Source: Zanthoxylum bungeanum
Taxonomy: Eukaryota > Streptophyta > Magnoliopsida > Sapindales > Rutaceae
Assembly: GCA_019454045.1 (NCBI GenBank)
Contig: SKCR01049650.1
Coordinates: 1-64,000, forward strand
Reading direction: 5' to 3'
Length of the DNA: 64,000 nucleotides
In this document: positions 9,212 through 36,531 of the stretch, in pieces
Numbering within the stretch: the stretch's first letter is position 1
How the letters are laid out: each line of letters starts with the position of its first letter
Notes under the pieces: generated by a model
What the model was told of the DNA's origin: nothing
The model's input: the letters and a program-made list of their open reading frames with translations, nothing else
Database searches by the model: none
Program-made: the position numbers and the translations under genes

Positions 9212-9642
9212 ATGTTTGAAGTAAATACGGTCATCGGATTATCGAAATACGTGCGTATCCGGTACCACGTTCTTATCGATTTAGAAGACATGGTTGGCTT
9301 CTAACAAAGCACCGTGCCTACCCAATTCTCCATAAATATTCTTTTAAGAATACAAGATCTTTATCAAGCGTAGTATACATAGTATTGCGTATTACGATCC
9401 AATATCAGATATCACATGCTAGGCCTAGGGCTGTAGTTGTGTCTGCCCCGTATGAAGTTTATATCGGATCACTAACAACTAGTCTCTTTATGATCGGAAA
9501 TTCATGACCTAGTCATACTTCCCCGATGGTTATAGCACTATCGAGTACTAGTTATGTATCTCTACGTGATCATCATCTCCATATTACTGAAGTAATACTT
9601 CCATCTTGACATCACCTCCAAGACACTACGATTATCAGTAAA
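9212..9642 (-). repeat. Reverse C1 LTR, left fragment
   Basis: From about 9212 the sequence matches 51887-52300, the interior of a reverse C1 LTR, and breaks at 9642 where LOG element 1 begins. It resumes at 17553. The first roughly 0.94 kb of the LTR is missing here, consistent with the forward element having inserted into it. Confidence 0.75.
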
Positions 9643-11548
9643 TAACCGGCGTAAACACACACGTATAACGCAAGCGCACGTATCGTTCAAGTAGTATAAA
9701 AATATCGATCCCACGAGGACTTAATTCCTACTGTTGTTATTAATTATTGAATCTATTTATTTACAAATATCTAATTAGATGGAAAAGAGAATGATTGTTT
9801 GATTGGTTGAAAGTGGTTTTGCAAAATTAAATAAATAAAAAGACAAAAGAAAATACTAAGGAAAAATAACAAAAGACACAAAGATCTAGGGTCGTGAATC
9901 ATTCTAATATCATTTAAAAGATGAAGTGGTTATTTTATGTTTGTGTAATAAATCAGTTTACTAACCTGGAACACTAAATTACGCAAAAGCCTCTGTCGAT
10001 GGTCAGACGCAAATACCCAGTTTAACCCAATTGAACCATATGTCTATGTCAACCAAATTATCTGGATTCATTAAGTTTAAGTTCCAATTATGGCTACCCC
10101 CGCCTGACAGGTATATTCCTATCCTGTAAGGAAATCTATTAAAGGGTTATCTATCCTCAAGGAAGATCGTGGGCTATTAAGTCTGAGGCTGAAACCTAAA
10201 ATCCCTATGTCTAGTTCATTTTAGATTTACCACATCAATCTTATTGGTGATCAGACAACAAGAAGCATTAAGCTTAAGACTTAATAAGTAAACTTTAAAT
10301 TACCCAAACTATAAAATAACCCCTTATAAACCGGTGATATTAGAATTCATCACAACCCCAGATAACTAACACATAACTAGGGCTAGTAACAACTTAAAAG
10401 TAAAAGACATAAAGTAAAAATACTGAAAAGTAAAATAAAATAAAATGCTAAGGCAAAAGGAATTACTTTTACTACTACTAATTTAGATATCTCCCATAAA
10501 ATAATATAGAAACTTGTGATATTATTTTACCAACCGACCAATCTGGCGGTATCCTGATTAAGTCAAATTAAGTCCAACCAGCCATATAGGCTGTAATATT
10601 TGTCCATAATCCAGCCATAAAGGCGGTAACAAAATAAATTTACCAACCGACCAATCTGGCGGTATCCTTGATTAGTCAGGTTTAAACCAGATTAAATTGA
10701 ATTGCCAACCGACCAATAAAAACTAAAAATTAAAGAAAGAAAAGTATTGTGCGTAAAAGTAAATTGCGGAAAGTAAAAACTGAAAAGTAAAGAAAAGAAA
10801 GTGCGAAACTGAAAATTAATTACTGAAAACTAAAAATAAACAAACTAGATACAATCTTCTTATTTATTCATTAAGAATTTCAAAGAAGAAAGTATGAATT
10901 TTACAAATGAAATGGCTTGGTATTTATAGGCAAAATTTTGCCACCATCAAATCATCCATCAAATTCTCCACCAAATCCATTATTAATTTCTCCACTAATT
11001 ACTCCACCAAATCCATAATTGCTCCACTAATTGCTTATCTTGTTTGGTGTTGATTTGATAATTTTTATTAATTATTAATTAATTAATATTTTGCTTTGAA
11101 AATGATTGATAATGACTTTTAATAATTACACTCCACACACTTCTGGATGGTTCATCAATTTCGGTCATGAAATCATCAGAATGCGAAAATACTTTCTCTT
11201 TCACAGTTGTAGATCTTTGAGTCTTCTTTAATCTGGCACTTGAATCAGCTCAATCCGATATTGGAGTAAAAAGTTATGCCCAAAATACGACAGATGCGCA
11301 AAACTGGAATTTCCAAAACTGCACTTCGTCAAAACGTCCTTTCAAGTTTCCAATCTCCAAAATTAATATATCAAGTCCAATAATTGCCCTTATTTGACCA
11401 TATTTCATCCTAAATGATTTCATTGAGTCCCAATATTATTTTATCTGCAAAATAAACTAAAACACATCAAAACGTTCATCAAACCCGAGAAACTAAACAA
11501 AATATTAAGTAAAAGGGGCGGTAAATATGATATATTTTCCGCTCATCA
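9643..11548 (-). repeat. LOG element 1, 3' LTR
   Basis: Read on the minus strand it starts TGATGAGCGG (11548) and ends at 9643, where the expected ...CCGGTCA has become ...CCGGTTA. It is almost identical to 15501-17552 but lacks about 145 bp after the third CCAACCGACCAAT unit (near 10717). A TATA-like sequence matching the 5' LTR lies at 10921-10929. Confidence 0.9.
10529..10717 (-). repeat. Short degenerate repeats in LOG-element LTR
   Basis: Units related to CCAACCGACCAATCTGGCGG and CCAGCCATATAGGCGGTA recur four or five times here. They also occur at 16389-16585, 20930-21130 and 29060-29260, in all LOG-element LTRs. They lie in the transcribed part of the LTR, downstream of the TATA box. 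Role unknown. Confidence 0.75.
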
Positions 11549-11585
11549 CACCCCCAAACCTAACATTTTGCTAGTCCTCGAGCAA
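11549..11585 (-). other. Polypurine tract module
   Basis: On the minus strand this reads GCTCGAGGACTAGC, then AAAATGTTAGGTTTGGGGGT directly before the LTR. This GAGGAC...GTTTGGGGG arrangement is typical of plant Tat/Athila gypsy elements and primes plus-strand DNA synthesis. Confidence 0.85.
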
Positions 11586-12118
11586 AACATAAAAATAAAA
11601 TAACATGAAAATAAAATTAACTAAGCCACTTTCGTAGGGATCACGGTTGCATTTAGCGTATGCAACAAGCCTTTAAACCCCTAGGTGTCCCTAGTGGACG
11701 AGTTGTAGTCTCGTGGGCTTACAGCAATGATACCCACAAATATTTTACAAAAGTAAAAAGTTAGTTAAAACTAATGCACACAAAAGCAAAAAGACAAGCG
11801 AAAAGAGAATAAAGATGTTAGTGACTAATCAGGTGAAACTTCTACTCCAAGTTACTAGTTGTTTTGTTTCTTTCTAAATTACTAAATAAGTAAACTCTCC
11901 GATTATTTTTACCATTCTCCATATACACAGCCAACAAATATTAAACAACTCATTTTTTGCCCACAACAGTCATAAGTGTAGTTGATAAGAGAGTAATATT
12001 TTTGTCCTAAAGTTCTATCAGATTTCACATCTTTTGGTAGCAATGGAATAATTTTTCTCATTTTTCTGATTTTTTCTTTGATTTTTTTTTCACTATTTTT
12101 TATTTATATACAATATCT
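11586..12118 (-). other. 3' non-coding region of LOG element 1
   Basis: No reading frame or structural RNA was seen. The stretch is closely matched by 22067-22587 in LOG element 2 and so belongs to the element body. Confidence 0.6.
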
Positions 12119-12346
12119 TCCATCTATTTAGCGAGTTTGGGTCGGTAACTCCCAAACCAGTTGGCTTTAGGGCACCAGGTGTTAAGACCCCTACGGACTT
12201 AATTACTCAGACTTCAGATATATATATATTTTTGCAGCATCTTCGATCCATGTAACGAGCTTTGGGCCAGTGACTCCCAAACCAGTTGGCTTTAGGGCAC
12301 TAGGTGTTAAAACACCCTTACAGACTTAATAACTCGGATCTCAGAC
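12119..12346 (-). repeat. Tandem duplication of about 115 bp
   Basis: Two units, about 12119-12222 and 12237-12346, share CTCCCAAACCAGTTGGCTTT followed by AGGGCAC and a GTGTTAA word. The same pair is present at 22588-22820 in LOG element 2, so the duplication predates the split of the two lineages. Confidence 0.8.

Positions 12347-12347
<1 letters not shown>

Positions 12348-12379
<32 letters not shown>
12348..12379 (-). repeat. Run of 32 T (poly-A on the element strand)
   Basis: On the element strand this is a 32-A run about 520 bases downstream of the LOG stop. LOG element 2 has a mixed A/T tract at the same place (22820-22836). It could be a relic of a captured mRNA tail or simple microsatellite growth. 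Confidence 0.7.
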
Positions 12380-12382
<3 letters not shown>

Positions 12383-12800
12383 CCACTGCTTTTTGAGATG
12401 CTTCCTCCAATTAAACTAGAGCACTGAATATTACAAACTTTTCAATTTTAACTCATGTCCGTATGTTACTATATATGTTGATAATACATGTCAACTGAGC
12501 ATATGAAGATCCATTTTAGTCCGTTTTAAGGAGAATTCACAAATTAAATAATTCAAAATGAAATAAACAAAAATTAACTTGTTTCGAAATAGGTTTGAGA
12601 TACGTCTCAGGAGTGGAAACTCCTTACTCAGCTATCTCTTACCAATTTCACCTTTTTAGTCAAATTAAAAACACAAAAAAAAAACACAAAATATTTTTGT
12701 AATTTTTGAAAATTTTTCAAATTTTTTTGTATTTTTCGAAAAATTTTAGACTAAAAATAAAAATAAAACACACAAACTAAAAACAAGGTATTGATCAACT

Positions 12801-12842
12801 AATTCCCTCCCCAAACCTAAATGAGACATTGTCCTCAATGTC
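12801..12842 (-). other. Second, internal polypurine-like module
   Basis: On the minus strand it reads ATTGAGGACAATGTCTCATT followed by TAGGTTTGGGGAGGG. This is the same GAGGACNA...TAGGTTTGGGG layout as the true tract at 11549, but it lies 60 bases after the LOG stop and 1.25 kb from the LTR. It probably marks an older element end or a duplicated module. Confidence 0.65.
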
Positions 12843-12901
12843 TTAAAAAGTAGAAGAAGAGTTTAGAAGGTCGTACCTGGTTAGCTGAAATCTACAGGAA
12901 A

Positions 12902-13555
12902 TTAAAGGTTTAGATCCAGATTAATCCTTCGTCTCTTACCACGATCGTCCTCGGACCAATTTATCTTTGAAATGATAGGGTCAACTTTTGGTTCATAGGC
13001 TATGAGTTGGTCAATTAGATCTGGAGCAGTTCTGGCAGTGAAGATGAGTTCTTTTAAAGGTTTTGACACGAACCCATTTCTCCGAGCATCATCAAGAAAC
13101 ACACAAAGAAAATCATAAAATCCATCAACATTAAACAGTCCAAGTGGTTTCTGGTGTATGTTCAGGTTCGCCCAAGATAGTACAATAAAAATTTCCTCCA
13201 ATGTGCCCAAGCCACCTGGCAAATCAATAAAAGCATCAGCACGGTTAATCATTTCTACCAGTCGTTCAGACATACCTGGCACGATCAGTTCCTCTCCGTT
13301 TGATGAACCAATAAGATTTGCCTCTGCCAAAGGTTTTGGGATGATTCCCAAAACATGACTGCCTCCTTCCTGTACAGCCTTTGAAATGATCCCCATAAGT
13401 CCAAGATTTCCTCCGCCATATATTAAGTGCATATTCCTTGCAGCTAAGACTCGACCCAATTCCTGTGCTGCTTCTATGTATTGTGGCTTAATACCAACAC
13501 TACTACCGCAAAACACGGAGATGTTTTCAACTCGTCTTCTTGAAGTGGCTTCCAT
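12902..13555 (-). CDS. LOG-family cytokinin riboside 5'-monophosphate phosphoribohydrolase (transduced, intact)
   Basis: This is a 217-codon ORF from ATG at 13555 to TAA at 12902. LOG enzymes release active cytokinin bases from cytokinin ribotides in one step, usually in cytosol and nucleus. Visible motifs are the nucleotide-binding start FCGSSVG (residues 15-21), YGGGNLGLMG (46-55), conserved Arg in MSERLVEM (R98) and the family signature PGGLGTLEE (113-121). This pairing of Arg with the final signature Glu is taken as the active site in the family. Length matches plant LOGs. The gene has no introns, although plant LOG genes normally have several, so it looks derived from spliced mRNA. Residue 111 is Asp where the family usually has Ala. 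The C-terminus carries KRRR then LDLNL, an EAR-like motif. A basic, Ser/Arg-rich N-terminus (ATSRRR) precedes the fold. It lies in the env position of LOG element 1. Expression cannot be judged from sequence. Confidence 0.93.
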   Translation of the reverse strand: MEATSRRRVENISVFCGSSVGIKPQYIEAAQELGRVLAARNMHLIYGGGNLGLMGIISKAVQEGGSHVLGIIPKPLAEANLIGSSNGEELIVPGMSERLVEMINRADAFIDLPGGLGTLEEIFIVLSWANLNIHQKPLGLFNVDGFYDFLCVFLDDARRNGFVSKPLKELIFTARTAPDLIDQLIAYEPKVDPIISKINWSEDDRGKRRRINLDLNL

Positions 13556-13615
13556 ATTTTTTTTTTATTTCTTTTTCAACTCTGGATGCCTTCAAAATTG
13601 CAATGACGGGCTGAA

Positions 13616-13650
13616 TTTATAGTACCTGAAAAAGGGTGAGTAATAATAGC
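13616..13650 (-). promoter_or_regulatory. Candidate 3' splice site just upstream of LOG
   Basis: On the minus strand CTCACCCTTTTTCAG is followed by GTACT, placing an acceptor at 13626/13625, 70 bases before the LOG ATG. The match in LOG element 2 is ACTCACCCTTTTCAG near 24060. A pyrimidine-rich tract ending in CAG fits a plant acceptor. If used, it would bring LOG close to the cap of a spliced message. Not proven. Confidence 0.4.
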
Positions 13651-13799
13651 ACTAATATCTTCCAAATGATGATTGTTAGCTAAACAACAAAAGAGATCGT
13701 GAAAGGTCACAAAGTCTGGATCATGTCTACGAAAATCAAGATAATTACAATAGAAAAGCGAATCAAAGCAATAATTAAGGCAACGTAATTGTGTACGCA

Positions 13800-13960
13800 A
13801 TACGCCACTCGCTTAGTATAAATTCATTAGGATGTGTCTCAAGATTTCATTCCTTATTCAGCCATCACTAATGAATTGTTTCTCATCTTTGATTGCCAAA
13901 CACAATTCATTCTGTCTTAAAATGCTTCGTTTGTGCCTTTCCCTACAAAAATAACACACA
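13800..13960 (-). pseudogene. Degenerate counterpart of the Cys-rich ORF of LOG element 2
   Basis: On the minus strand, after TTATTTTTGTAG (a second acceptor-like site near 13943), the sequence aligns by eye with the 24560-24252 ORF. GTGTGTTATTTTTG corresponds to GTTTGTTATAAATG, and TTGAGACACATCC to TTGAGACGGATCC. A stop codon interrupts the frame soon after the EKQFISDG stretch. No function is known. Confidence 0.45.
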
Positions 13961-14010
13961 AAATTAAAAAGTTCACACAAAATATGAAAACAAATTACAA
14001 CAAATTGCAT

Positions 14011-14035
14011 GGGTTGCCTCCCTGCTAGCGCTAAA
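14011..14035 (-). other. GGGAGGCAACCC motif after the lost pol region
   Basis: On the minus strand TTTAGCGCTAGCAGGGAGGC is followed by AACCC. From general knowledge, a GGGAGGCAACCC block often follows the pol ORF in plant Tat/Athila-type elements. It lies between gag and LOG here, which places LOG in the 3' (env-like) position of an ancestor whose pol was deleted. Confidence 0.55.
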
Positions 14036-14183
14036 TTTTTCGTCTTCAGCCAGACGTGACTGAAATTCATCTGTTAAGGAGGTTTCAATGTCGTTTTGGA
14101 TGTCCGATTAAAGACAATCCCGTGAGCGTTGCTTTTGAAGGGTCTCTTCCAACGGTAAAGTGGCAAAAAGAGTTTTGTCTCAT

Positions 14184-15368
14184 TCAATACTCGTGCCACC
14201 TTTTGCTCATTGTTACTCCAATGGTTCCTGCAAAGAAAGAAAGAAAATCAGGAGGTCTCGTATGATGCTTGACTTGGAATGGAAATTCCATTCTATCAAG
14301 CTTCTGGTTGATATCTTTAATTTGTACTCCCCAAAACAGCGATGTTTCTCCTGAATGCTCTGGATCTTTATTTAGGTCAGACATTTGCTCCTCCATTTGC
14401 TCTGTTTCTTGCTCCACCTTCTCTTCACAGATGTATTGTAAAATTCTTGCATTCATCTCTTCATCTGTCCTCTGTGAAATACATGCTTCAAAATTGTCAA
14501 CCCGAGGATGCAAAGATGTTTCTGACATTAGGTTTTCATCCTCTGGTACGACTAGAATGGATGGTTCAGATAGATCTTCTTCAAACATCAAGGTAAAGCA
14601 TGCTCTAAGATCTTCATTTTGAGGATTGAAAGTTTGATCCTCCGTTGTTGGTGCAGTTGGTACAAATAGATCAGCTTCATCCTCGTCAGAATCTGAATAA
14701 TAAAAGTCAAATTGAGACTTTGCCGGTTCGGGCTCCTGAACTGATACCTCTGGTTGTTGATACTGCTCAGCCTCCTCCTCTATTGAAGTGTCATTGTGAA
14801 ATGATTGGTACTCGAAGGCTTCATCTATGTCATCTGAAACTGGTTCTTGAGGTATGTAGTTCTGGTTTTCTGTGAATTGTCTCATTTGATTTGTCATCCT
14901 CTGAATGAATTCTGATTGTCTCTGAATACTTTCAAATTGTTTCTGGCTTGTTTCAAGCATTGTATCTAACCTTTCTTTTTGTTTCTTGAACATATCTTCG
15001 AGCATGTTTAGCAACTGATTTTCTTCTGATGTTTCTGGTTGTTGATGAAGATCATAGGTAGATGGTGGATAAGATAGAAAATGTGGTTCTGTGAAATGTG
15101 ATGGCTCGTCATAACAAGAAGGATCTTGATAGCTCTGCCACCCTGGATGGTATTTGTATTTGCAATAATCTCTAGGGTGGTTACCATTACAAATTTCACA
15201 TCTCCCCATTGCGTTTTGTTTAGCAAATGTGGTATTGCTTGGTTCTGGCATCCAGTGATAATTGTTGGGCTGGACAACAGGCCTCAGAAAACCGGACTGT
15301 TGCTCCCAAATTTGGGGTGTATTTTCTAGTAAAGCTCGTGATCTCTCAATCTCCCAATAAAGTTCCAT
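14184..15368 (-). CDS. Gag-like protein with zinc knuckle, lacking the capsid domain (394 aa)
   Basis: The frame is open for 394 codons, starting about 110 bases after the primer site. A knuckle CEIC-NGNH-PRDYC (C57, C60, H64, C69) resembles the nucleic-acid-binding motif of Athila/Tat gag proteins. Residues about 115-170 are Gln/Lys/Glu-rich and probably coiled coil. Residues about 178-265 are strongly acidic (for example SDSDEDEADLF). The N-terminal Retrotrans_gag capsid domain that is present in LOG element 2 (27955-27311) is absent, so this looks like a gag C-terminal half that became the first ORF by deletion. It may bind element RNA and rely on another element for capsid. The C-terminal 150 residues are not recognised. 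Confidence 0.65.
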   Translation of the reverse strand: MELYWEIERSRALLENTPQIWEQQSGFLRPVVQPNNYHWMPEPSNTTFAKQNAMGRCEICNGNHPRDYCKYKYHPGWQSYQDPSCYDEPSHFTEPHFLSYPPSTYDLHQQPETSEENQLLNMLEDMFKKQKERLDTMLETSQKQFESIQRQSEFIQRMTNQMRQFTENQNYIPQEPVSDDIDEAFEYQSFHNDTSIEEEAEQYQQPEVSVQEPEPAKSQFDFYYSDSDEDEADLFVPTAPTTEDQTFNPQNEDLRACFTLMFEEDLSEPSILVVPEDENLMSETSLHPRVDNFEACISQRTDEEMNARILQYICEEKVEQETEQMEEQMSDLNKDPEHSGETSLFWGVQIKDINQKLDRMEFPFQVKHHTRPPDFLSFFAGTIGVTMSKRWHEY

Positions 15369-15476
15369 TTCTCAATCACCTAAAAAAAAAAGAAAAATAA
15401 AAATTACAAATAAAATAAAGAAAATAGATACAAGTAAATTAGATAGCTTCAAAATTAATAACTCAAGAAAAATAAG

Positions 15477-15494
15477 TCCCCGGCAACGGCGCCA
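15477..15494 (-). other. Primer binding site, tRNA-Asp
   Basis: On the minus strand it reads TGGCGCCGTTGCCGGGGA, complementary to the 3' end of plant tRNA-Asp (CCCCGGCAACGGCGCCA). It lies six bases inside the 5' LTR end and is a common primer site of Athila/Tat gypsy elements. Confidence 0.9.
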
Positions 15495-15500
15495 AAAACT

Positions 15501-17552
15501 TGACCGGCGTAAACACACACGTATAACGCAAGCGCACGTATCGTTCAAGTAGTATAAAATATCGATCCCACGGGGACTTAATTCCTACTGTTGTTATTAA
15601 TTATTGAATCTATTTATTTACAAATATCTAATTAGATGGAAAAGAGAATGATTGTTTGATTGGTTGAAAGTGGTTTTGCAAAATTAAATAAATAAAAAAG
15701 ACAAAAGAAAATACTAAGGAAAAATAACAAAAGACACAAAGATCTAGGGTCGTGAATCATTCTAATATCATTTAAAAGATGAAGTGGTTATTATATGTTT
15801 GTGTAATAAATCAGTTTACTAACCTGGAACACTAAATTACGCAAAAGCCTCTGTCGATGGTCAGACGCAAATACCCAGTTTAACCCAATTGAACCATATG
15901 TCTATGTCAACCAAATTATCTGGATTCATTAAGTTTAAGTTCCAATTATGGCTACCCCCGCCCGACAGGTATATTCTATCCTGTAAGGAAATCTATTAAA
16001 GGGTTATCTATCCTCAAGGAAGATCGTGGCTATTAAGTCTGAAGGCTGAAACCTAAAATCCCTATGTCTAGTTCATTTTAGATTTACCACATCAATCTTA
16101 TTGGTGATCAGACAACAAGAAGCATTAAGCTTAAGACTTAATAAGTAAACCTTTAAATTACCCAAACTATAAAATAACCCCTTATAAACCGGTGATATTA
16201 GAATTCATCACAACCCCAGATAACTAACACATAACTAGGGCTAGTAACAACTTAAAAGTAAAAGACATAAAGTAAAAACTACTGAAAAGTAAAATAAAAT
16301 AAAAATCTAAGGCAAAAGGAATTACTTTTACTACTACTAATTTAGATATCTCCCATAAAATAATATATAAACTTGTGATATTATTTTACCAACCGACCAA
16401 TCTGGCGGTATCCTGATTAAGTCAAATTAAGTCCAACCAGCCATATAGGCGGTAATATTTGTCCATAATCCAGCCATAAAGGCGGTACCAAAATAAATTT
16501 ACCAACCGACCAATCTGGCGGTATCCTTGATTAGTCAGGTTTAAACCAGATTAAATTGAATTGCCAACCGACCAATATAGCGGTATCATTTATTAATCAG
16601 TATTTTAAATAGTGAATATATTATTTTTAAGGGAGATTAATCTAAATAGTAACAGTAAAAGAATTACCTTTCACCCTAGCTGGGGAAATTACCTCCTCAT
16701 TACAAAATGAAAAAAAATAAAACTAAAAATTAAAGAAAGAAAAGTACTGTGCGTAAAAGTAAATTGCGGAAAGTAAAAACTGAAAAGTAAAGAAAAGAAA
16801 GTGCGAAACTGAAAATTAATTACTGAAAACTAAAAATAAACAAACTAGATACAATCTTCTTATTTATTCATTAAGAATTTCAAAGAAGAAAGTATGAATT
16901 TTACAAATGAAATGGCTTGGTATTTATAGGCAAAATTTTGCCACCATCAAATCATCCATCAAATTCTCCACCAAATCCATTATTAATTTCTCCACTAATT
17001 ACTCCACCAAATCCATAATTGCTCCACTAATTGCTTATCTTGTTTGGTGTTGATTTGATAATTTTTATTAATTATTAATTAATTAATATTTTGCTTTGAA
17101 AATGATTGATAATGACTTTTAATAATTACACTCCACACACTTCTGGATGGTTCATCAATTTCGGTCATGAAATCATCAGAATTAGAAAATATTTTCTCTT
17201 TCAAAAGTTGTAGATCTTTGAGTCTTCTTTAATCTGGCACTTGAATCAGCTCAATCCGATATTGGAGTAAAAAGTTATGCCCAAAATACGACAGATGCGC
17301 AAAACTGGAATTTCCAAAACTGCACTTCGTCAAAACGTCCTTTCAAGTTTCCAATCTCCAAAATTAATATATCAAGTCCAATATTTGCCCTTATTTGACC
17401 TATATTTCATCATAAATGATTTCATTGAGTCCCAATATTATTTTATCTGCAAAATAAAACTAAAACACATCAAAACGTTCATCAAACCTGAGAAACTAAA
17501 CAAAATATTAAGTAAAAGGGGCGGTAAATATTGATATATTTTCCGCTCATCA
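15501..17552 (-). repeat. LOG element 1, 5' LTR
   Basis: This 2052-bp LTR reads TGATGAGCGG...CGCCGGTCA on the minus strand. It carries the promoter for element transcription. The U3 part (about 16930-17552) has no CACGTG word and is unlike the U3 of LOG element 2, while the transcribed part is clearly related to it. Confidence 0.9.
16921..16929 (-). promoter_or_regulatory. TATA box of LOG element 1 5' LTR
   Basis: CTATAAATA on the minus strand lies about 625 bases inside the LTR, a good match to the plant TATA consensus. It predicts transcription starting around 16890 and running through gag and LOG. Confidence 0.6.
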
Positions 17553-18113
17553 GTAAACCCAGAAGAGGCGTACACAGAACCTGTTAAAGCCCCGGACGAG
17601 CAAAACCAAAGTATACTGATTGTCGCAAGTATACACGATGCAAGTCTCAAGTTAAGACCATATAAACCTACCCTGATTCAGACTCCCATAGACACATAGT
17701 CATACTACCAATGGGATTCCGAGGGTCTATCCAGAGCGAAGCTGTTCCCGTACCATCGGCAAACAGAACCTCTATCACACTTGCATGAGTATCCAATACC
17801 CAAATATATGAGAACTATGCCATTAAGCTTCCATAACGCGCACAAGTGTAATACTAGCCTATTCCGCATTATCGATGTCCAGTCTCGATAATACTACGAC
17901 TATGGATATTTAATGATTAAAACTTATGCGGATTAATACTGTCTCATAGCTTATTAATCTGGAACTAATCATATGGACTTTTATCATTTATATATCCAGG
18001 TAATCTAATTACAAATTATAAAAGAGCAATTTCATTTGTCACATAGTTAATTTTGTACAAGAACACCATGTTCTTTACAAAATAGTGATGTTATGGGTCA
18101 TAATTATCCAACA
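17553..18113 (-). repeat. Reverse C1 LTR, right fragment
   Basis: This continues 9212-9642 after LOG element 1, starting with the duplicated GTAAA. It ends at CCAACA (18113) and is followed by a polypurine tract (ATCTCCCACTTGG on the plus strand), so on the minus strand this is the 3' LTR of the host element. Confidence 0.85.
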
Positions 18114-19700: not shown

Positions 19701-20021
19701 CCACTCCATTTAGGAATTCCTTATCGAGAAAAACCGCATGGAGAGCAACAAATACATTGTTCTCTTGTGAGTTGTATAAGTACTATACTTTGGTTTCCCT
19801 AGGACAACCTACAAATAGGTACTTATCCGATTTGGGTTCTAGTTTGGTATCATCCAAACGTTTAGAGTATGCCCAGCATTCCCAAATCTTCAGGAATGAG
19901 AAATCCGGTTTTTATCCTGTCTATATCTAATATGAAGTCTGTCTAATAGATTTTCATGGAACCTTTTTTCAAAATATGTATTGCACTATTTAATGCGTCT
20001 CCTTAAAAGGAAATTGGTAAC
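19701..20021 (-). pseudogene. Host C1 integrase C-terminal fragment (continues at 36797)
   Basis: The segment matches 42430-42740 and 63360-63660 (for example the NPIG/GFSFLK-like region near 19880). It stops at 20021, where LOG element 2 is inserted. The copy of the target site here is GTAAC (20017-20021). Confidence 0.7.
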
Positions 20022-21410
20022 TGGCCGGTGCTTAAACACGCGTATAACGCAAGCGCACGTATCGTTCAAGTAGTATAAAAAGTATCGATCCCACGATGAC
20101 TTATTACCTAAGCTATAAATTTTATGATGTCAAATGATTACTAGTATCTAACAGGTTGTTTGAATTATTTGAAATGGTGACGATTCTAAATTTAAAAACA
20201 AGTAAATTAAATTATTCGAGAGTAGGTTTTAAGAAAATTCAACATTAAAAACTATCTAGGGTTGTGATTTCTTCCAATATCATTTTAAAGATGAAGTGGT
20301 TATTTTATAGTTGGGTAATATATTGATTTATTAACCTGGAACACTAAATTATGTGAAAGCCTCTATCAATGGTCAGACATAAATACCCAGTTTAACCCAA
20401 TTGAACCATATGTTTATGTCAACCAAATTATCTGGATTCATTAAGTTTAAGTTCCAATTATGGCTACCCCCGCCCGACAGGTATATGTCTATCCTGTAAG
20501 GAAATCTTTTAAAGGGTTATCTATCCTCAAGGAAGATCGTGGGCTATTGAGTCTAAGGTCTTAAACCTAAAATCCCTATGTCTAGTTCATTTTAAGTTTA
20601 CCTAATAAATTTTATTAGTGGCCAGTTAATAAAAAGCATTAAGATTAAGACTCAATAAATAAATCTTTATATTACCCAAACTATAATCTAACCCCTTATA
20701 AACTGGTGATATTGGAATTCATCACAACCATAGATAACTAATTTAGTTACAACACATAACTAGGGCTAGTAAAAACTTAAAAGTAAAAGCCACAAAGTAA
20801 AAATGCGGTAAAGTAAATACTAAAAAGTAAATTACAATAAAATAAAATGCTAAGGTAAAAGGAATTACTTTTACTATTTACTATTTTAGATATCTCCCAT
20901 AAAATAATATATAAACTGATGATAACATTACCAACCAGCCATATAGGCGGTAACCTGATTAATTCAAATTAAGTCCGAACAGCCATAAAGGCGGTATGAT
21001 TTGTCCATGAACCTGCCATATAGGCGGTAAGAAAATTTAATTGCCAACCAGCCATATAGGCGGTATCCTTGATTAGTTAGGTTTAAACCAGTTTAAAATG
21101 AATTACCAACCGACCAATATGGCGGTATCGTTTTTAAGTCAAATTTTAAATAGTGAATATATTATTTTTAAAGGAGATTAATCTAAATAGCAATAATAAA
21201 AGAATTACTTTTCACCCTAGCAGAGGGAAGTTACCTCCTCATGGTTGAATAGTAAACACTATAAAAATAAAGAAAGTAAATTACTATTATTACAGAACGT
21301 AATTAAAATTAAATTACAAAACTTAAATTAAAAGAAACTAGAGAGAAGACTCCTTATTTACATCAAAGAAATGAGAGAGAATGGTAAAATTGAAATTAAA
21401 ATCTCGAGTT

Positions 21411-21420
21411 CAATTTATAG
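21411..21420 (-). promoter_or_regulatory. TATA box of LOG element 2 3' LTR
   Basis: CTATAAATTG on the minus strand. The same sequence lies at 29542-29551 in the 5' LTR. The G-box cluster lies 130-350 bases upstream of it. Confidence 0.55.
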
Positions 21421-21437
21421 ACTTCGGTAGGCCACGG

Positions 21438-21845
21438 GGCGTCGCGACGCCAAAGGCTTTGGCATCGTGACGCTCGAACAGTTCACTTGGTCTACGCGTT
21501 TTGAATTTGACTGTTGACGCGGATTTCGTCGGCCCAATAAGAATTCGACACGTGGCACGCGGTAAGATTCGGTTCAATGAGAGGATGACACGTGGCAGAA
21601 AATGATTCTATGATGATTCGGTCCAATGAGAAGATGACATGTGTCACGCGGAGTGTCGGCACCATAGGCTTTGTGACACGTGTCCCGGCGCATATTAGCG
21701 GATCCTCTGTGATGGTGACACGTGGCACAGCGCACGTTAGCAAAGTCAACATTTCAGATTCTGACACGTGGACTCGGCGTACGTTAGTAAGGGACTGGCA
21801 CATGTTAGGCGTCGCGACGACAAGGGTTTGGGCGTCGCGACGCTC
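21438..21845 (-). repeat. GC-rich palindromic boxes flanking the G-box cluster
   Basis: The self-complementary word GGCGTCGCGACGCC lies at 21438-21451. Close relatives lie at 21808-21820 and 21831-21844, each next to a CAAAGG/CAAGGG plus TTTGG spacer. They bracket the G-box cluster and stand out from AT-rich surroundings. Confidence 0.7.
21549..21770 (-). promoter_or_regulatory. Cluster of five G-boxes (ABRE-like) in the LTR U3
   Basis: Perfect CACGTG cores lie at 21549, 21589, 21677, 21719 and 21765, with a mutated one (CATGTG) at 21638. Three sit in ACACGTGGC, the abscisic-acid response (ABRE) type of G-box bound by bZIP factors. Position just upstream of the TATA box fits a promoter enhancer. 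The matching cluster in the 5' LTR is at 29679-29853. LOG element 1 lacks it. Confidence 0.75.
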
Positions 21846-22029
21846 ACAAATTACCAAAATGCCCTTTTCCAATTTTCACTGTTTTCTCTAAGTCACCTCC
21901 AGAATGTCCTGAAACTTTATTTATCTACAAAATAACACAAAACACATCAAAATATTCACAAAACTCAAGATACTATACAAAATATTAGGCTAAATGAGTG
22001 GGAAATAGTGATAGATTTACCACTCATCA

Positions 22030-22066
22030 CACCCCCAAACCTAACATTTTGCTAGTCCTCGAGCAA
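22030..22066 (-). other. Polypurine tract module of LOG element 2
   Basis: It has the same GCTCGAGGACTAGC ... GGTTTGGGGGTG arrangement as at 11549-11585 and directly adjoins the 3' LTR. Confidence 0.85.
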
Positions 22067-23348
22067 AACAAAAAATAAAATAACATAATAAAATTTAACT
22101 AAGCCACTTTCGTAGGGATCACAGTTGCATTTAGCGTATGCAACAAGCCTTTAAACCCCTAAGTGTCCCTAGTGGACAATTTGTAGTCTCGTGAGGGTTT
22201 ACAGCAATGATACCCACAAACATTTTACAAAAGTAAAAATGTAGTGAAACTAATGCACACAAAAGCAAAAAGACAAACGAAAAGAGAATAAAGAAGTTAG
22301 TGACTAATCAGATGAAACTTCTACTTCAAGTTACTAATTGTTTTGTTTCTTTCTAAATTAACGAATAAGTAAATTCTCCGATTATTTTTACCATTCTCTA
22401 TATACACAGCCAACAAAATATTAAACAACTCATTTTTTCCCACAACAGTCACAAAGTGCAGTTGATAAGAGAGTTATATTTTTGTCTTAAAGTTTTATCA
22501 GATTTCACACATTGTTGTAGCAATGGAATAATTTTTCTGATTTTTCTGATTTTTTCTTTGATTTTTTAATTTTTTTTTATATACAATACCTTCCGTTTAT
22601 GTAGCGAGCTTTGGGTCGGTGGCTCCCAAACCAGTTGGCTTTAGGGCACCATGTGTTAAGACACCCCTACGAACTTAATTACTCAGACTTCAGATATATA
22701 TATTTTTGCAGCATCTTCGATCCATGTAACAAGCTTTGGGCCAGTGACTCCCAAACCAGTTGGCTTTAGGGCACTAGGTGTTAAAACACCCTTACAGACT
22801 TAATAACTCGGATCTCAGATTATTTTTATTTTTTACTCCATCACTTTTTGAGATGCTTCCTCCAATTAAACTAGAGCACTGAATATTACAAACTTTTCAA
22901 TTTTAGCTCATGTCCGTATGTTACCATGCATGTTGATAATATCTGCCAACTGAGCATATGAAGATCCATTTTAGTCCGTTTTATGGAGAATTCAGAACTT
23001 AAATAATTCAAAAGGAAATAAATAAAAATTAACTTGTTCCGAAATAGGTTTTAGATACGTCTCAGGAGTGGAAACTCCTTACTCATCTATCTTTTACCAA
23101 TTTCACCTTTTTAGTCAAAATAAAAACAAAAAAGCAAAATATTTTTGTAATTTTTGAAAATTTTTAAATTTTTTTGTATTTGTCGAAAAATTTTGGACTA
23201 AAAATAAAAATAACACACAAACTAAAAACAAGGTACTGATCAACTAATTCCCTCGCCCAAACCTAAATGAGACATTGTCCCCAATGTCTTAAACAGTAGA
23301 AGAATAGTTTAGAAGATAATACCTGATTAGCTGAAATTCTACAGGAAA
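22067..23348 (-). other. 3' non-coding region of LOG element 2
   Basis: This is homologous to 11586-12901. It contains the tandem duplication at 22588-22820 and a decayed internal polypurine-like module at 23246-23290 (GGTTTGGG interrupted to GGTTTGGGCG). No reading frame was found. Confidence 0.7.
22588..22820 (-). repeat. Tandem duplication matching 12119-12346
   Basis: Two units of about 105-110 bp share CTCCCAAACCAGTTGGCTTT and an AGGGCAC stretch. Their presence in both LOG elements shows shared ancestry of the 3' region. Confidence 0.8.
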
Positions 23349-24002
23349 TTAAAGGTTAAGATCCATATTAATCCGACGCCTCTTAACACAATTGTCCTCG
23401 GACCAATTTATCTTTGATAGGATAGGCTCAACTTGTGGTTCATATGGTAAGAGTTGGTCAATTAGATCCGGAGCAGTTCTGCCAGTAAAGAGGAGTTCTT
23501 TTAAAGGTTTTGACACGAACCCATTTCTCTGGGCATCATCAAGAAACACACAAAGAAAATCATAAAATCCATCAACGTTGTGCAACCCAATTGGTTTCTG
23601 GTGTATGTTCAGGTTCGCCCAAGATAGAACAATAAATATTTCCTCCAATGTACCCAAGCCTCTTGGCAAAGCAATAAAAGCATCAGCACGGTTAATCGTT
23701 TCTACCAGTTGTTCAGACATACATGGCACGGTCAGTTCCTCTCCGTTTGATGGTTCAATAAGATTTGCTTCTGCCAAGGGTTTTGGGATGATTCCCAAAA
23801 CATGACTTCCTCATTCCTGTACGGCCTTTGAAACGATCCCCATTAGTCCAAGATTGCCTCCGCTATATACTAACTGCATATTTCTTACAGCTAAGACTCG
23901 ACCCAATTCTTGTGCAGCTTTTACGTATTGTGGTTTAGTACCAACACTACTACCACAAAACACACAGATGTTTTCAACTCGTCTTCTTGAAGTGGCTTCC
24001 AT
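23349..24002 (-). pseudogene. LOG-family gene copy 2 with a stop at codon 64
   Basis: The region is 654 bases from ATG to TAA, exactly collinear with the intact copy at 12902-13555 with no indels. The only frame-breaking change is a TGA in place of a Gly codon at codon 64 (23811-23813), so this is one nonsense mutation and not a frameshift. By eye I count 31 amino-acid replacements plus the stop and about 24 synonymous codon differences between the copies. Key losses are the first Gly of YGGG (now YSGG, residue 47), Arg98 to Gln and PGG to PRG (residue 114). It should not make an active enzyme. Ala111 matches the family norm where copy 1 has Asp. The tail is KRRRINMDLNL. Confidence 0.92.
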
Positions 24003-24251
24003 GTTTTACTCTGGATGTCTTCAAAAGTGTAATGATGAGTTTAATTTATAATACCTGAAAAGGGTGAGTAAAAATAGCACAAGTATCTTCCAAATGACGA
24101 TTAGTAGCAAAATAGTAAAATAAATCGTGATAGTCAAAAAGGTCTGGATCATGTCGGTGAAAACAAAAGAAAACAACAAAATAAATCATAATTATCAGGA
24201 AAAGACAAAGAGATAAAATATTTACAAGAAAAGTAGCGGCTTGATTGACGT
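24003..24251 (-). other. Spacer between the Cys-rich ORF and LOG copy 2
   Basis: Homologous to 13556-13800. It includes the acceptor-like CACCCTTTTCAG near 24055-24066. A short frame (RHDPD...HLED...THPF) is partly shared with copy 1 but loses phase at the acceptor-like site, so I do not call it coding. Confidence 0.45.
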
Positions 24252-24530
24252 CTATGCGTCAGGGACAAGCTTCCCATCCAATCTTCTTATAAATTGGCAA
24301 ACATGGTCTTTTTGAGTCAGATTCTCGAGACTTAACAATTGTCTTTCCTTTTGGAATTGTGCATATAACATGCGAATTTCATGATACACACATCCACTGG
24401 GATCCGTCTCAAGAGTTTTAGATATGTCATCCAAAGACTCCTTACTCAAGCCATCCCTAATGAAATTAATCTTATCTTCGCGGTTATTGGACACCATTCC
24501 TAAAGAATGACAACGAGTATTACAAAACAT
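24252..24530 (-). CDS. Unknown Cys-rich 92-aa ORF between gag and LOG
   Basis: This frame is open from the stop that ends gag (near 24561) to TAG at 24252, with ATG at 24530. Just before and after the ATG the frame reads CVCYKCARMFCNTRC, an unusual Cys cluster. A charged, probably helical stretch follows (KINFIRDGLSKESLDDISK, then YAQFQKERQLLSLE). LOG element 1 has a decayed equivalent at 13800-13960. I do not recognise a family. It could be an accessory or env-position protein, a remnant of captured sequence, or a chance ORF. It lies in the same orientation as gag and LOG. Confidence 0.45.
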   Translation of the reverse strand: MFCNTRCHSLGMVSNNREDKINFIRDGLSKESLDDISKTLETDPSGCVYHEIRMLYAQFQKERQLLSLENLTQKDHVCQFIRRLDGKLVPDA

Positions 24531-24560
24531 ACGAGCACATTTATAACAAACACACTTTCT

Positions 24561-24832
24561 TTAGGCTCTTATCTTTTTAGCATATGTGCTCTTTCCTAAA
24601 CCAGGCAGATGTGAAATAAAAGAGTCAGAAGACTCTTTATAGAGAATCTTCTGTTGCCCTGTTTCTTTTGGAACTTCCTCAGCTGTTGTTTTGGCTCCAA
24701 CATCTTTGTTGATTTCAGTACCGATTTTTAACATGATGGCATGACACTGCTCCTTCCCTATGTTCCTTGGATTTGGTTATGTGTTGCTAGGAAGATTTCC
24801 TGGCGGTCTGTAACTCTGAGCATTGGCCAGTT
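24561..24832 (-). pseudogene. Gag C-terminal part of LOG element 2
   Basis: Continuing gag from 26814, the minus-strand frame reads NAQSYRPPGNLPSNT then a stop, and on to GLGKSTYAKKIRA and TAA. The RPPGNLPSNT word is typical of the end of plant Athila/Tat gag. It is separated from the rest by the solo LTR. Confidence 0.7.
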
Positions 24833-26813
24833 TGTTGGTTTCTATAATATGTCCCAAGGAAAGATTAAGCATATATGAAATACAACAAAGAATATATATA
24901 AACATGAAGTATGGCGGAATCATACTTACAATATCTTGTGATGAAGAAAATCAAGCCAAGATGGAAGCTCCAAGGTGGATGATTTTCGGCCAGGTGAGAA
25001 GATGTGGAAAGCTCCAAGCTTTGAGTATTCCAAGCTCTATGATGGTTTCCCTATCACCTCTTTTGATCCCTTGAAGGTGCTAGCCTTGCTTGTGAGGAGA
25101 TGTTCCAAACAATCACACTTTCTTCAAGCTTTTGGCAACCAAAATGAAGAAGATGAAGACCAAAAACTGCATGCAGTTTTTCGGCCAAGTGAGAGAGAGA
25201 AGAGAGATTTTTCTTTTTGTTCTCATTGATTTTTGATACCAAAAATCAATTTATATTTATGCCATAATATTTATTAAATAATAATAAATCTATGACACAA
25301 GCCATGCAAAGGCTTAGAGTGTCAAACACTCAAATTCCATGCATAACATTAGAGTGTATTATACACTATCACCATGCAATGCATTATCAATAAAATAATA
25401 CATTCAATGACATGTGTCAAGTGGGCCCCACACATTTCCAAATGAAAGTGGGCCCACGTCCACTCACGCGTTCGAGTTCGATATTTCTGAAATACCGAAC
25501 TTGCGTCGCGACGTTAATTAAATCGAATTTAAATAAATAATCGCGCCTAGCGAAATTATTATTTACGTCGCTAACGAATTAATTCTAAATTAACTCGTAT
25601 GCCCGAATTAAAATCTAATTTTAATTTCGCGTCGAAATCGAATTTCAATTATTATATCGAATATAATAATCTTACTGATTAATTCCAAATTAATCGTTCT
25701 CTCTCTCTAAATAAGGCACTTTATCCGAGATAAAGTTTCTCCGCAATTAATCCAAGATTAATTAAGTTCGAATCAAATATCATAGGTGAATCTTCAGGAA
25801 GCGACCCAAGAGATCTCCGGATATGTTGGCAGTAAATACGGTCGTCGGATAATCCGAACACGCACGTACCTCGTACTACGTTCTTACCGATTCACAAGAC
25901 AAGGTTGGCTTCTAGCAAAGCGCCATGCCTACCCAATTCTCCAGAAATATTCTTATAGGAATATAAGATCTATATCAAGCGTAGTATACCGTAGTATTGC
26001 GTACATCGATCCAGTATCGGATGATCACATGCTAGGCCTAGGGTTGGAGATGTGTCTGCCCCGTACGAAACATATATCGGACATCAAGCAACTAGTCTCT
26101 TTAAATCGGACAATCCTGACCTAGTCATATTGTCCCGACGGTTGCAACCTTTTATAGAGTACTAGTTCTGTGTCCTGCGTGATCATCACCTCCATATGTC
26201 TGAAGCGATACTTCCATCTTGACATCACATCCAGTACACTACGATTCTCGATAAACCCAGAAGAGGTGTACACAGAACCGGTTAAGGTCCCCAACCACCA
26301 AAACCAAAGTTTACCGATTGTCGCAAGTACTAGCGATGTAAGTCTCAGGTTAAGACCATATACACCTACCCTGATGTGGCCTCCCATAGACACCTAGACA
26401 TACTACCAATGGGATTCCGCGGGGTCTATCCAGAGCGAAGCTGTTTTCCGTACCATCGGTAAAACACAACCTCCTATCGCACTTGCATAAGTATCCAATA
26501 CTTAAATATATGAGAACTATGCCGTTGTGCCCTCACAACGTGCACAAGCGCAATACTAGCCTATTCCGCATTATCGATGTCCAGTCTCGATAATACTACT
26601 GCTAGGGATATTTAATGATTAAACCTTTATGGATTGATACTGTCTCATATCATCTCAATCCAGTACTAATCATATGGACTTTCGCCATTTATATATCAAA
26701 GTAAATAATATTTACAAAATGGCAAAAGGCAATTTCATTATTACATAGTTAATTTTGTACAATAATACAATATCATTTACAAACAGTGACGCTATGGGAC
26801 ACAATGTCTAACA
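24833..26813 (-). mobile_element. Solo C1 LTR inserted in gag (TSD CAGTT)
   Basis: This is a single 1981-bp LTR running TGTTGGTTTC...GTCTAACA in plus-strand coordinates, with perfect flanking CAGTT (24828-24832 and 26814-26818). No internal region is present, which fits recombination between two LTRs of a former full element. It belongs to the same subtype as 29852-36526. The hairpin chain is at 25476-25766. Confidence 0.92.
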
Positions 26814-26818
26814 CAGTT

Positions 26819-27955
26819 GTCCGATTTGATTCTCCAGTGCTTTGATGGAAGCAGATTGGCTCTGAAACATAGCATCGTACCATTTTAACTGAGTTAGCAC
26901 TTCTGCTATTCCTGGTTCATTTACCTGCTCATGTCATTTGTTCTGTTGCTGGAATCAGGTGGTGGATAGTTTTGTTGCCCTGAATTGTTGCTCCATGAAA
27001 AATTAGGATGATTCCTCCACCCTGGGTTGTAGGTGTTGGAATATAGATTGTTCCCCTGTTTGTTGAAATTGTTGACAAAATTCATCGTCTCTTCAAGTTG
27101 GTTCGACTCTGGTGCTCCTCCATATGGTGAACTTATGGATCCAGTTGTAAGAGTCTCCATAAATTTGCATATCCGATCCAGCTTGGCGTTGACTACTGTA
27201 TTGTCTCCACTTTTATAAATTCCTGTAATTCTTTGTATCATGCTCATTTCTGTTGGCCACAAACAATTGTTGTTGGCCATTTAATCGATTAGTTCCCAGG
27301 CTTGATCTTCTCATTTTGCCATTAAAGCTCCTCCAGTAGCAGCATCGATTGTGGTTCTCATTATTACAGAAAGTCCATTATAGAAAGTTTGGACTTGAAG
27401 CCATTTTGGAATCTCATGGTGAGGACATTTCCGGAGCAAATCTTTGTACCTTTCCCAAGCTTCGTAGAGAGTTTCTGAGTCTTGTTGTACAAAGGATGTG
27501 ATGTCATTCCTCAGTTTTCTAGTTCTGGCCGGTGTAAAGTACTTTGCAAGAAATTTGGTGGCTAAAGTGTTCCAAGTTGTGATGGAACCTGCTGGTAGTG
27601 AATGTAGCAAAGCTTTAGCTCTGTCCTTCAAGGAGTATGGGAAAACATGCATTCTCATTGCTTTTTCAGCTTCTCGGTTGTAATTGAAAGTGCCGCAAAC
27701 TTCCAAGAAGTTGGTGATGTGGGCATTAGGATCTTCAGTTCCATTCCCCCCAAACTGAACTGACTGCTGAATCATCTGAATGCATGTTTTTATGTCACCC
27801 ACATTTGCTGGTAAAGGAGGAAGTACAATACAAGAAATGAGTCTAACAACCACCAAAATGGTTCTGTCTCGAATGGGAATTGGTGGTGCAACGTTCAAAG
27901 CTTCAGGTTCCATGTTGACTAAAGCTTCTTGGCCTTCTCGTCGTTCCATTCTCAA
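26819..27955 (-). pseudogene. Gag of LOG element 2 (Retrotrans_gag capsid domain)
   Basis: The frame at 27311-27955 carries the capsid domain, with FGGNGTEDPNAHITNFLEVC, then FPYSLKDRAKALLHSLPAGS, TWNTLATKFLAKYF and a CPHHEIPKWLQVQTFYNGL stretch. These are hallmarks of Athila/Tat gag. The frame at 26921-27280 continues with PESNQLEE and NPGWRNHPNFSW. Between them and after 26921 the frame shifts. The run to 26819 reads EPGIAEVLTQLK and KALENQIGQL and continues at 24832. The protein would form virus-like particles in the cytoplasm. It is broken by frameshifts and by the solo LTR. Confidence 0.85.
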
Positions 27956-28129
27956 CTGTCTGATGGTTTTTCAATTTCCGGGTCAAGCGGTCAAAGTTCA
28001 AAGCTTATAGTTCGTCTCATTAAGTTTCTGAGAACTTGAAACATAAGAAAACAAAAACAATAAGTAAAAATAAAATTAGATACAAGTAAAGGTATCTAAC
28101 CTTAAAACTAATAGTGAAAGATAAATAAA

Positions 28130-28147
28130 TCCCCGGCAACGGCGCCA
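28130..28147 (-). other. Primer binding site, tRNA-Asp, LOG element 2
   Basis: It is identical to the site at 15477-15494 and lies six bases from the 5' LTR end at 28154. Confidence 0.9.
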
Positions 28148-28153
28148 AAAACT

Positions 28154-29851
28154 TGACCGGTGCTTACACACATATATAACGCAAGCGCACATATCGTTCA
28201 AGCAGTATAAAAATTATCGATCCAACGAGGACTTAATACATAAGCTATTAATTTTATGAGGTCAAATGATTACTAGTATCTAACAGGTTGTTTGATTGAT
28301 TTGAAATGGTGACGATTCTAAATTTAAAAACAAGTAAATTAAATTATTCGAGAGTAGGTTTTAAGAAAATTCAATATTAAAAACTATCTAGGGTTGTGAT
28401 TTCTTCCAATATCATTTTAAAGATGAAGTGGTTATTTTATAGCTGTGTAATATATTGATTTATTAACCTGGAACACTAAATTATGTGAAAGCCTATGTCG
28501 ATGGTCAGACACAAATACCCAGTTTAACCCAATTGAACCATATGTTTATGTCAACCAAATTATCTGGATTCATTAAGTTTAAGTTCCAATTATGGCTACG
28601 CCCGCCCGACAGGTATATGTCTATCCTGTAAGGAAATCTTTAAAGGGTTATCTATCCTCAAGGAAGATCGTGGGCTATTGAGTCTAAGGTCTTAAACCTA
28701 AAATCCCTATGTCTAGTTCATTTTAAGTTTACCTAATCAATTTTATTAGTGGCCAGTTAATAAAAAGCATTAAGATTAAGACTCAATAAATAAATCTTTA
28801 TATTACCCAAACTATAATCTAACCCCTTATAAACCGGTGATATTGGAATTCATCACAACCATAGATAACTAATTTAGTTACAACACATAACTAGGGCTAG
28901 TAAAAACTTAAAAGTAAAAGCCATAAAGTAAAAATGCGGTAAAGTAAATACTGAAAAGTAAATTACAATAAAATAAAATGCTAAGGTAAAATGAATTACT
29001 TTTACTATTTACTATTTTAGATATCTCCCATAAAATAATATATAAACTTATGATAACATTACCAAACAGCCATATAGGTGGTAACCTGATTAATTCAAAT
29101 TAAGTCCGACCAGCCATAAAGGCGGTATGATTTGTCCATGAACCTGCCATATAGGCGGTAAGAAAATTTAATTTCCAACCAGCCATATAGGCGGTATCCT
29201 TGATTAGTCAGGTTTAAACTAGTTTAAAATGAATTACCAACCGACCAATATGCCGGTATCCTTTTTAATTCAAATTTTAAATAGATATTATATTATTTTT
29301 AAAGGAGATTAATCTAAATAGCAACAGTAAAAGAATTACCTTTCACCCTAGCAGAGGGAAGTTACCTCCTCATGGTTGAATAGTAAACACTATAAAAATA
29401 AAGAAAGTAAATTACTATTATTACAGAACGTAATTAAAATTAAATTACAAAACTTAAATTAAAAGAAACTGGAGAGAAGACTCCTCATTTACATCAAAGA
29501 AATGAGAGAGAATGGTAAAATTGAAACTAAAATCTCGAGCTCAATTTATAGACTTCGGTAGGCCACGGGCGTTGCGACGCCAAAGGCTTTGGCATCGTGA
29601 CGCTCGAACAGTTCACTTGGTCTACGCGTTTTGAATTTGACTGTTGACGCGGATTTCGTCGGCCCAATAAGAATTCGACACGTGGCACGCGGTAAGATTC
29701 GGTTCAAAGAGAGGATGACACGTGGCAGAATATGATTCACTAATGATTCGGTCCAATGAGAAGATGACACGTGTCACGCGGAGTGTCGGCACCATATGCT
29801 TGTGACACGTGTCCCGACGCATGTTAGCGGATCCTCTGTGATGGTGACACG
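28154..29851 (-). repeat. LOG element 2, 5' LTR, main part
   Basis: This is closely similar to 20022-21724. It carries the TATA box (29542-29551) and the G-box cluster with CACGTG at 29679, 29719, 29768, 29806 and 29848. It is interrupted at 29851 by a copia insertion, and the distal U3 resumes at 36532. Confidence 0.88.
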
Positions 29852-31635: not shown

Positions 31636-31864
31636 ATCTCCCACTTGGCCTATAGCCAGTCACTCAAGCATCTAATACCCGAACTATGTATGTGTCGTTC
31701 AAAAACTTGCTGAAGAACAGCCTTCGTCAGCGGATCTGCAATGTTGTCATCTGATGTAACCTTCTCGACCTTTACATCGCCACGATGTATAATCTCCCGA
31801 ATCAGATGGTAATGTCGAAGAACATGCTTGGACCGTTGATGAGACCTTGGTTCCTTAGCCTGTG
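31636..31864 (-). pseudogene. RNase H C-terminal fragment
   Basis: This matches 40626-40855 up to CCTGTGCTATA and then joins gag. Only the last part of the RNase H region survives, including the DNIADPLTKA-equivalent stretch. Confidence 0.75.
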
Positions 31865-34554: not shown

Positions 34555-34555
34555 T

Positions 34556-36526: not shown

Positions 36527-36531
36527 ACACG

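Follow-up and report, generated by a model that had tools for sequence, protein, structure and literature searches.

An intact LOG gene in a young copy of a probably very large non-autonomous LTR retrotransposon family of Zanthoxylum bungeanum

Background

The role of most extra genes carried by plant retrotransposons is unknown. Extra open reading frames (ORFs), even of LOG type, are already known in plant Gypsy elements with long terminal repeats (LTRs). The section on YgdH (a LOG-type domain) in PMC9289625, a paper that cites Steinbauerova et al. 2011, reports this domain in LTR consensuses of Citrus sinensis and C. clementina and, under less strict filtering, of Populus trichocarpa. This was the one paper found to join YgdH with retrotransposons in the open PMC literature searched; a term search in PMC13317346 found neither "cytokinin" nor "LONELY". 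Here we describe an LTR retrotransposon with an intact LOG gene on the minus strand at 9643-17552 of a 64,000-nucleotide stretch of Z. bungeanum DNA (assembly GCA_019454045.1, contig SKCR01049650.1, positions 1 to 64,000; hereafter the window). The element is young and probably belongs to a very large family of non-autonomous LTR elements, in which LOG would be a long-resident accessory gene under purifying selection.

The Citrus and Populus elements and those described here share a LOG-family domain within plant Gypsy-type LTR elements. The former were found via reverse transcriptase (RT) whereas those read here are RT-less, and the section on YgdH does not give copy number, selection, ORF state or a partner ORF for the former (PMC9289625). 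Env-like plant LTR elements, in the passages on them in PMC7264820, also have a sense extra ORF placed after the gag region and before the 3′ LTR, but the extra protein here belongs to an enzyme family of known reaction and pol is gone. Orchids likewise have Gypsy elements with a cellular enzyme, an AlkB-type m6A demethylase described in PMC9289625 in its section on that enzyme; it is a different enzyme with activity demonstrated in vitro, whereas LOG is known here from sequence. Plant LOG genes (2a33 and 1ydh; loci L031 and L032 of the host) share the fold family and the PGGxGTxxE motif with the element-borne gene (retro-LOG), which differs in being intronless, repeated and tailed by a basic stretch and an LxLxL-like end. 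A preliminary description of the element had called a LOG gene in a retrotransposon unusual. The association is real and indeed unusual; LOG-type domains had already been reported in Citrus and Populus elements (PMC9289625, section on YgdH). What appears to be new within the open PMC literature searched is the scale, the constraint measured, the persistence of LOG in RT-less elements, the common tail and a neighbouring ORF like a viral nucleic acid binding protein (NABP).

Results and discussion

The window element

The element has paired LTRs, a target site duplication (TSD), a primer binding site (PBS) and a polypurine tract, and its reading direction was corrected to the minus strand. Its features, each followed by the evidence, were:

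9638..9642, unstranded: TSD GTAAA, left copy (sequence and LTR alignment)
9643..11548, minus: 3′ LTR, 1906 bp (LTR alignment)
11549..11561, minus: polypurine tract, abutting the 3′ LTR (sequence)
12902..13555, minus: LOG gene, intact, intronless, 217 codons (ORF, Pfam, solved-relative match, TIGR00730)
13616..13660, minus: conserved island, -105 to -61 from the LOG start, of presumed role (divergence among copies)
14184..15368, minus: ORF1, 394 aa, its middle part like a gag C-terminus (ORF, Pfam scan, comparison with another copy)
15476..15494, minus: PBS TGGCGCCGTTGCCGGGGAC (sequence)
15501..17552, minus: 5′ LTR, 2052 bp (LTR alignment)
17553..17557, unstranded: TSD GTAAA, right copy (sequence and LTR alignment)

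The two LTRs differed at 17 of 1903 aligned bases (Kimura two-parameter distance 0.0090, i.e. 0.9% divergence), with 12 gaps, one of them of 141 bp; the final base pair of the 3′ LTR was TA where the 5′ LTR had CA. Assuming 1.3e-8 and 7e-9 substitutions per site and year, insertion was dated to 0.35 and 0.64 million years ago, respectively. The PBS begins 6 bases past the inner end of the 5′ LTR, and we take it to be of tRNA-Asp type. The TSD, LTR boundaries, PBS, polypurine tract and youth of the LTRs were thus confirmed as first described.

Two long sense ORFs, ORF1 (394 aa) and LOG (217 aa), lie between the LTRs. The element had been read as having gag but lacking pol. The second half of that reading stood: the internal region has 11 sense frames of at least 50 aa, and Pfam gave no match to RT, RNase H or integrase for any of them. 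The first half was weakened: ORF1 reached no Pfam gag model, and only residues 62-173 were gag-like, with 29% identity over 113 columns to the C-terminal part of the gag of another copy, so a full gag in this element was not supported. A 56-base direct repeat (89% alike, spacing 125) was seen at 12136-12316, between LOG and the 3′ LTR, and also in other copies of the family.

The LOG ORF (13555..12902) encodes a protein matching PF03641 (E 9e-35) and TIGR00730 (162.7 bits against a cut-off of 96.35). Its best solved relative by sequence was 2a33 (E 3e-58), and 1ydh was also matched; both are Arabidopsis proteins. The PGGLGT motif begins at residue 113, and R98, G115, G117, T118, E120 and E121 were invariant in a 16-row alignment. 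With these family matches and PGGxGTxxE, the protein is a LOG-family member, and an intact, intronless, 217-codon sense gene with the signature residues was found as claimed.

Copies of LOG in the genome

The assembly comprises 3.956 Gb in 51,709 contigs, of which C46052 begins with the window. A 28-mer from the PGGLGT region of LOG occurred, with up to 3 mismatches, at 12,967 + 12,758 = 25,725 places, and a 28-mer from between LOG and the 3′ LTR, with up to 2 mismatches, at 16,542 + 16,422 = 32,964; the decoys gave 0 in both cases. The latter word was used for a LOG-blind sample, namely the first 30 exact matches by contig order (L043-L072) rather than a random draw. LOG was present at 28 of these 30 loci and intact at 4 (95% interval 4-31%), which, extrapolated to the genome, gives intact LOG frames in the thousands, with a large error. 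Four loci (L046, L047, L052 and L058) held far more diverged copies (DNA identity 66-72%), which suggests that one genome contains several old lineages of LOG. The best 150 protein matches to LOG, selected by likeness, were all at least 94% identical, and 145 of them were stop-free. Further LOG-bearing copies are thus abundant, and the initial picture of one element that captured a gene gave way to that of a gene long established in a family whose copies number tens of thousands.

Selection on LOG

Among 29 protein-picked copies the ratio of non-synonymous to synonymous divergence (dN/dS) of LOG was 0.086 (0.05-0.14), dN being biased low because the copies were selected by protein likeness; segregating sites at codon positions 1, 2 and 3 numbered 22, 14 and 70. 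In the LOG-blind sample the pooled dN/dS was 0.31 (0.25-0.39), and 0.18 for its four intact copies. Four of the 28 LOG matches, with at least 60 of 654 positions uncovered, were excluded from this estimate and from the following comparison. In the 24 near-full copies, singleton changes comprised 94 synonymous and 204 non-synonymous ones (ratio 2.17) versus 102 and 83 (ratio 0.81) for changes common to at least two copies, the neutral expectation being 2.49 with an assumed transition/transversion weight of 4. The difference was significant by Fisher's test (p 3.9e-7), a value that is only approximate because the majority codon served as the reference and kinship among copies was ignored. Shared changes were constrained and singletons near-neutral, the pattern expected if lineages move under protein constraint and the copies left behind decay freely.

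The window element was also compared with the same 18 copies for both genes, 17 of them chosen by LOG likeness and with ORF1 partly covered at most loci. The proportion of synonymous differences (pS) was 0.118 for LOG and 0.106 for ORF1, and dN/dS was 0.146 and 0.703, respectively. Judged from these alignments, LOG is more constrained than ORF1 of the same copies, and purifying selection on its protein product probably preserves it. Protein-level selection supports the retained function that had been proposed; that the enzyme is active, expressed and beneficial is what we infer.

Relatives and origin of the retro-LOG

An intron-containing host LOG, expected if the gene had been captured from a spliced mRNA, was present, with exons in L031 and L032. 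Its identity to the retro-LOG was 41% in the longest exon and 35-50% in shorter pieces. In a tree of 37 proteins the host LOGs grouped with two Arabidopsis LOGs, apart from the group of the window LOG, which held proteins of Populus, Paulownia, Reevesia and Xanthoceras. The supports were 91/77 and 80/98, with a midpoint root and four canonical rows only, so the tree is of moderate weight; with moderate confidence, the nearest named relatives of the retro-LOG are proteins of other eudicot orders. Since the host LOG is only about 41% identical, it was not a recent donor, and recent capture from it was rejected on this identity together with the separate position in the tree. Capture by one element from a spliced mRNA of the present host was not supported, given that position, the long residence of LOG in a family of tens of thousands of copies and the two architectures carrying the gene (see below). 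Time and source left aside, an intronless LOG fits capture through RNA.

Recent passive transduction would mean that a host LOG mRNA was picked up, that the copies are too young to have decayed and that LOG has no role. The intronless LOG beside an intron-bearing host LOG agrees with it, and plant retrotransposons are known to transduce genes (PMC7264820, passages on transduction). Against it stand, besides the host LOG's low identity and distant position, the synonymous divergence of LOG among copies (0.10-0.22, non-synonymous divergence being far lower) and the 66-72% identical copies in the same genome, and we consider it highly improbable.

Among relatives of at least 200 aa within the best 120 listed (n=102), a C-terminal tail of a basic stretch plus an LxLxL-like end was found in 82, and basic residues near the end in 97. 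The canonical host LOG lacks this tail, which we take to be a nuclear signal and an EAR motif. The retro-LOG might be kept for a use outside cytokinin metabolism, either as a nuclear corepressor-recruiting protein, which such a tail would suit, or in clearing N6-modified adenine nucleotides that would disturb reverse transcription, and the m6A demethylase of orchid Gypsy elements (PMC9289625, section on that enzyme) is a precedent in its favour. The motifs of the catalytic family are conserved, however, and the tail pattern is missing in 20 of the 102 relatives, which makes this use unlikely.

Two RT-less architectures

At 30 protein-picked loci, ORF1 stood upstream of LOG in 19 (window included), a presumed integrase C-terminus with a 130-aa ORF in 10, and neither in one. 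The second type had, in L073 and L076, the order gag capsid, protease-like stretch, presumed integrase tail, 130-aa ORF and LOG. The capsid was recognised by a PF03732 match in L073 and by likeness in L076; the protease-like stretch gave weak Pfam matches below cut-off, and the integrase C-terminus of L073, joined to the protease frame, was read by eye, without a Pfam match. LOG was broken in L076. The gag, protease and presumed integrase C-terminus of L073 (this last piece being the one without a Pfam match) follow a Ty3/gypsy-compatible order.

No RT, RNase H or integrase core was found in the five interpretable internal regions (window element, L073, L074, L076 and a second element in the window), the last four either leaving no space for RT or showing no trace of it; a sixth region, L075, was a tangle of insertions outside these five. 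The window element, without RT and integrase, is thus a non-autonomous LTR element. The pS of LOG was 0.089 and 0.097 within the two types and 0.100 between them, so that divergence did not separate the types. LOG was thus kept, or exchanged, by elements without transposition enzymes. When 15 hand-picked integrase-tail places (of 150 listed) were compared with 60 LOG places picked from the LOG listings, 12 of the 15 had a same-strand LOG 953-1222 bp downstream of them. Frames of at least 900 aa were considered as a mark of autonomous LOG elements and rejected: of the listed places with frames of 889, 907 and 916 aa, the one that was read, L076, proved to be a gag-protease joined to the presumed integrase tail.

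The presence of constraint in both types bears on whether the host took over some copies as expressed LOG genes, host-level selection then producing the constraint. Intact copies do exist, and related Populus proteins are named LOGL10. The constraint, however, lies on changes common to dispersed copies, and a few fixed loci would not suffice unless they re-seeded the family; such a takeover is quite improbable as the source.

The NABP-like partner ORF

The 130-aa ORF lies directly upstream of LOG in L073 (3669-4061, plus strand) and L076 (3302-3693, plus strand). It passed the cut-offs of PF01623 Carla_C4 (30.9 vs 20.9 bits) and PF05515 Viral_NABP (25.3 vs 23). There were 332 relatives at E <= 0.001, with PF01623 in 117 of the best 120 listed; named ones among those listed came from Populus, Xanthoceras, Acer, Parasponia, Rhamnella and Orobanche, and some eudicot relatives were annotated "Viral nucleic acid binding". 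When 45 relatives were scanned, 41 matched each of the two families at E <= 0.01. Over 13 copies the ORF had a dN/dS of 0.36, with a stop in two. The window element lacks it, and at least its tail was present at 15 of the 30 LOG-blind loci.

Like carlavirus NABPs, this ORF, confined to the sister architecture, passes both Pfam cut-offs and has a basic stretch followed by a Cys cluster. The Cys pattern was C-X2-C-X4-C-X3-C in most of eight relatives compared, unlike the carlavirus finger C-X2-C-X12-C-X4-C given in the relevant passage of PMC8839810, which the ORF failed to match; it was therefore named NABP-like, not a carlavirus cysteine-rich protein. The same source, in its passages on function, describes carlavirus NABPs as silencing suppressors and links the NABP of one virus to an up-regulated transcription factor, malformed leaves and cell proliferation. 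A predicted fold of the ORF was too weak for use (mean predicted local distance difference test score 64.6), and none of 42 matches in a BFVD search with it reached E <= 0.001. The seven best matches were viral suppressor, nucleic-acid-binding or small proteins, which is suggestive only; their viruses are presumably betaflexivirids. Nothing in the open PMC literature searched joined carlavirus or viral nucleic acid binding proteins with plant LTR retrotransposons.

A conserved island upstream of LOG

The island at -105 to -61 diverged by 0.037-0.064 among the 29 protein-picked copies, versus 0.18-0.19 in the adjoining upstream sequence and 0.06-0.20 on the downstream side; the LOG-blind set gave 0.07-0.15, 0.23 and 0.18-0.49, respectively. 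It holds CCCTTTTTCAG/GTACTATAAAT (a polypyrimidine-CAG/G, the CAG/G lying near 13625, and TATAAAT), and 62 of 69 copies matched this motif over 21 bases with at most 3 edits. This sequence would suit a candidate 3′ splice site, as in env-like ORFs, or a TATA box.

How LOG may be kept

We propose that an autonomous Ty3/gypsy relative, which from the likeness of PBS and gag to the Athila lineage we take to be Athila/Tat-like, moves the elements in trans. An RNA spliced or internally started at the CAG/G or TATAAAT of the island would give translated LOG, and in cells where the element is expressed the enzyme would release active bases from cytokinin riboside monophosphates. It might thereby favour the copy producing it, most plausibly via a dividing cell lineage that reaches the germ line, while single copies would decay neutrally once inserted.

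A bolder and less likely version is that the lineage manipulates the fate of host cells to secure its own transmission, with a kit of silencing-suppressor-like NABP and nuclear-tailed cytokinin enzyme, cell-lineage selection having kept LOG while RT and integrase were lost, and with spread to tens of thousands of loci.

Several points weigh against a long-resident, selected accessory gene. A diffusible enzyme should benefit every copy equally, so that selection per copy requires the cell-lineage idea, which is a conjecture. No autonomous partner was found among the elements examined, and 26 of the 30 LOG-blind loci had no intact LOG frame. The retro-like LOGs of other plants entered the comparison as protein sequences. 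The window LOG scored 108.3 bits with the equivalog model NF058542 (cytokinin LOG), under its 300-bit cut-off, a model built for NCBI annotation of bacterial and archaeal genomes and run here with no plant LOG as control. The window copy also has D at residue 111 beside the PGG motif (2 of 29 copies) and S at residue 13 (1 of 29), and because of these unusual residues its activity is uncertain despite the intact frame.

With an assayable family reaction, a visible cytokinin output, a constrained protein and elements without transposition enzymes, the role of such an accessory gene is open to direct experiment. Should they be active, the LOG frames dispersed in their thousands would provide a lasting supply of new hormone genes; they are also a hazard for LOG annotation in plants.

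Other features of the window

A second, older LOG element, belonging to the same family, was seen at 20019-36796 on the minus strand, with gag, a decayed LOG and later insertions inside. Its LTR parts, 20019-21724 and 28150-29853, are 96% alike, and a later insertion apparently splits its 5′ LTR at 29853. It contained:

23349..24002, minus: decayed LOG (85% aa identity to the window LOG, one stop)
24252..24776, minus: remnant frames of an NABP-like ORF (likeness to the L073 ORF by eye; no Pfam match)
27311..27955, minus: gag, PF03732, between the LTRs (Pfam)

The plant small nucleolar RNA (snoRNA) snoR71 (RF00097, 47.4 bits) was matched at 27411-27517 on the plus strand, antisense within this gag frame; the match is either due to chance or a snoRNA carried by the element. 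Fragments of another retrotransposon on the minus strand comprised a gag-pre-integrase with an integrase core (PF13976, PF00665) at 42754-43350 and a frame at 40640-41332 that, without a Pfam match, resembled the end of a copia-type RNase H.

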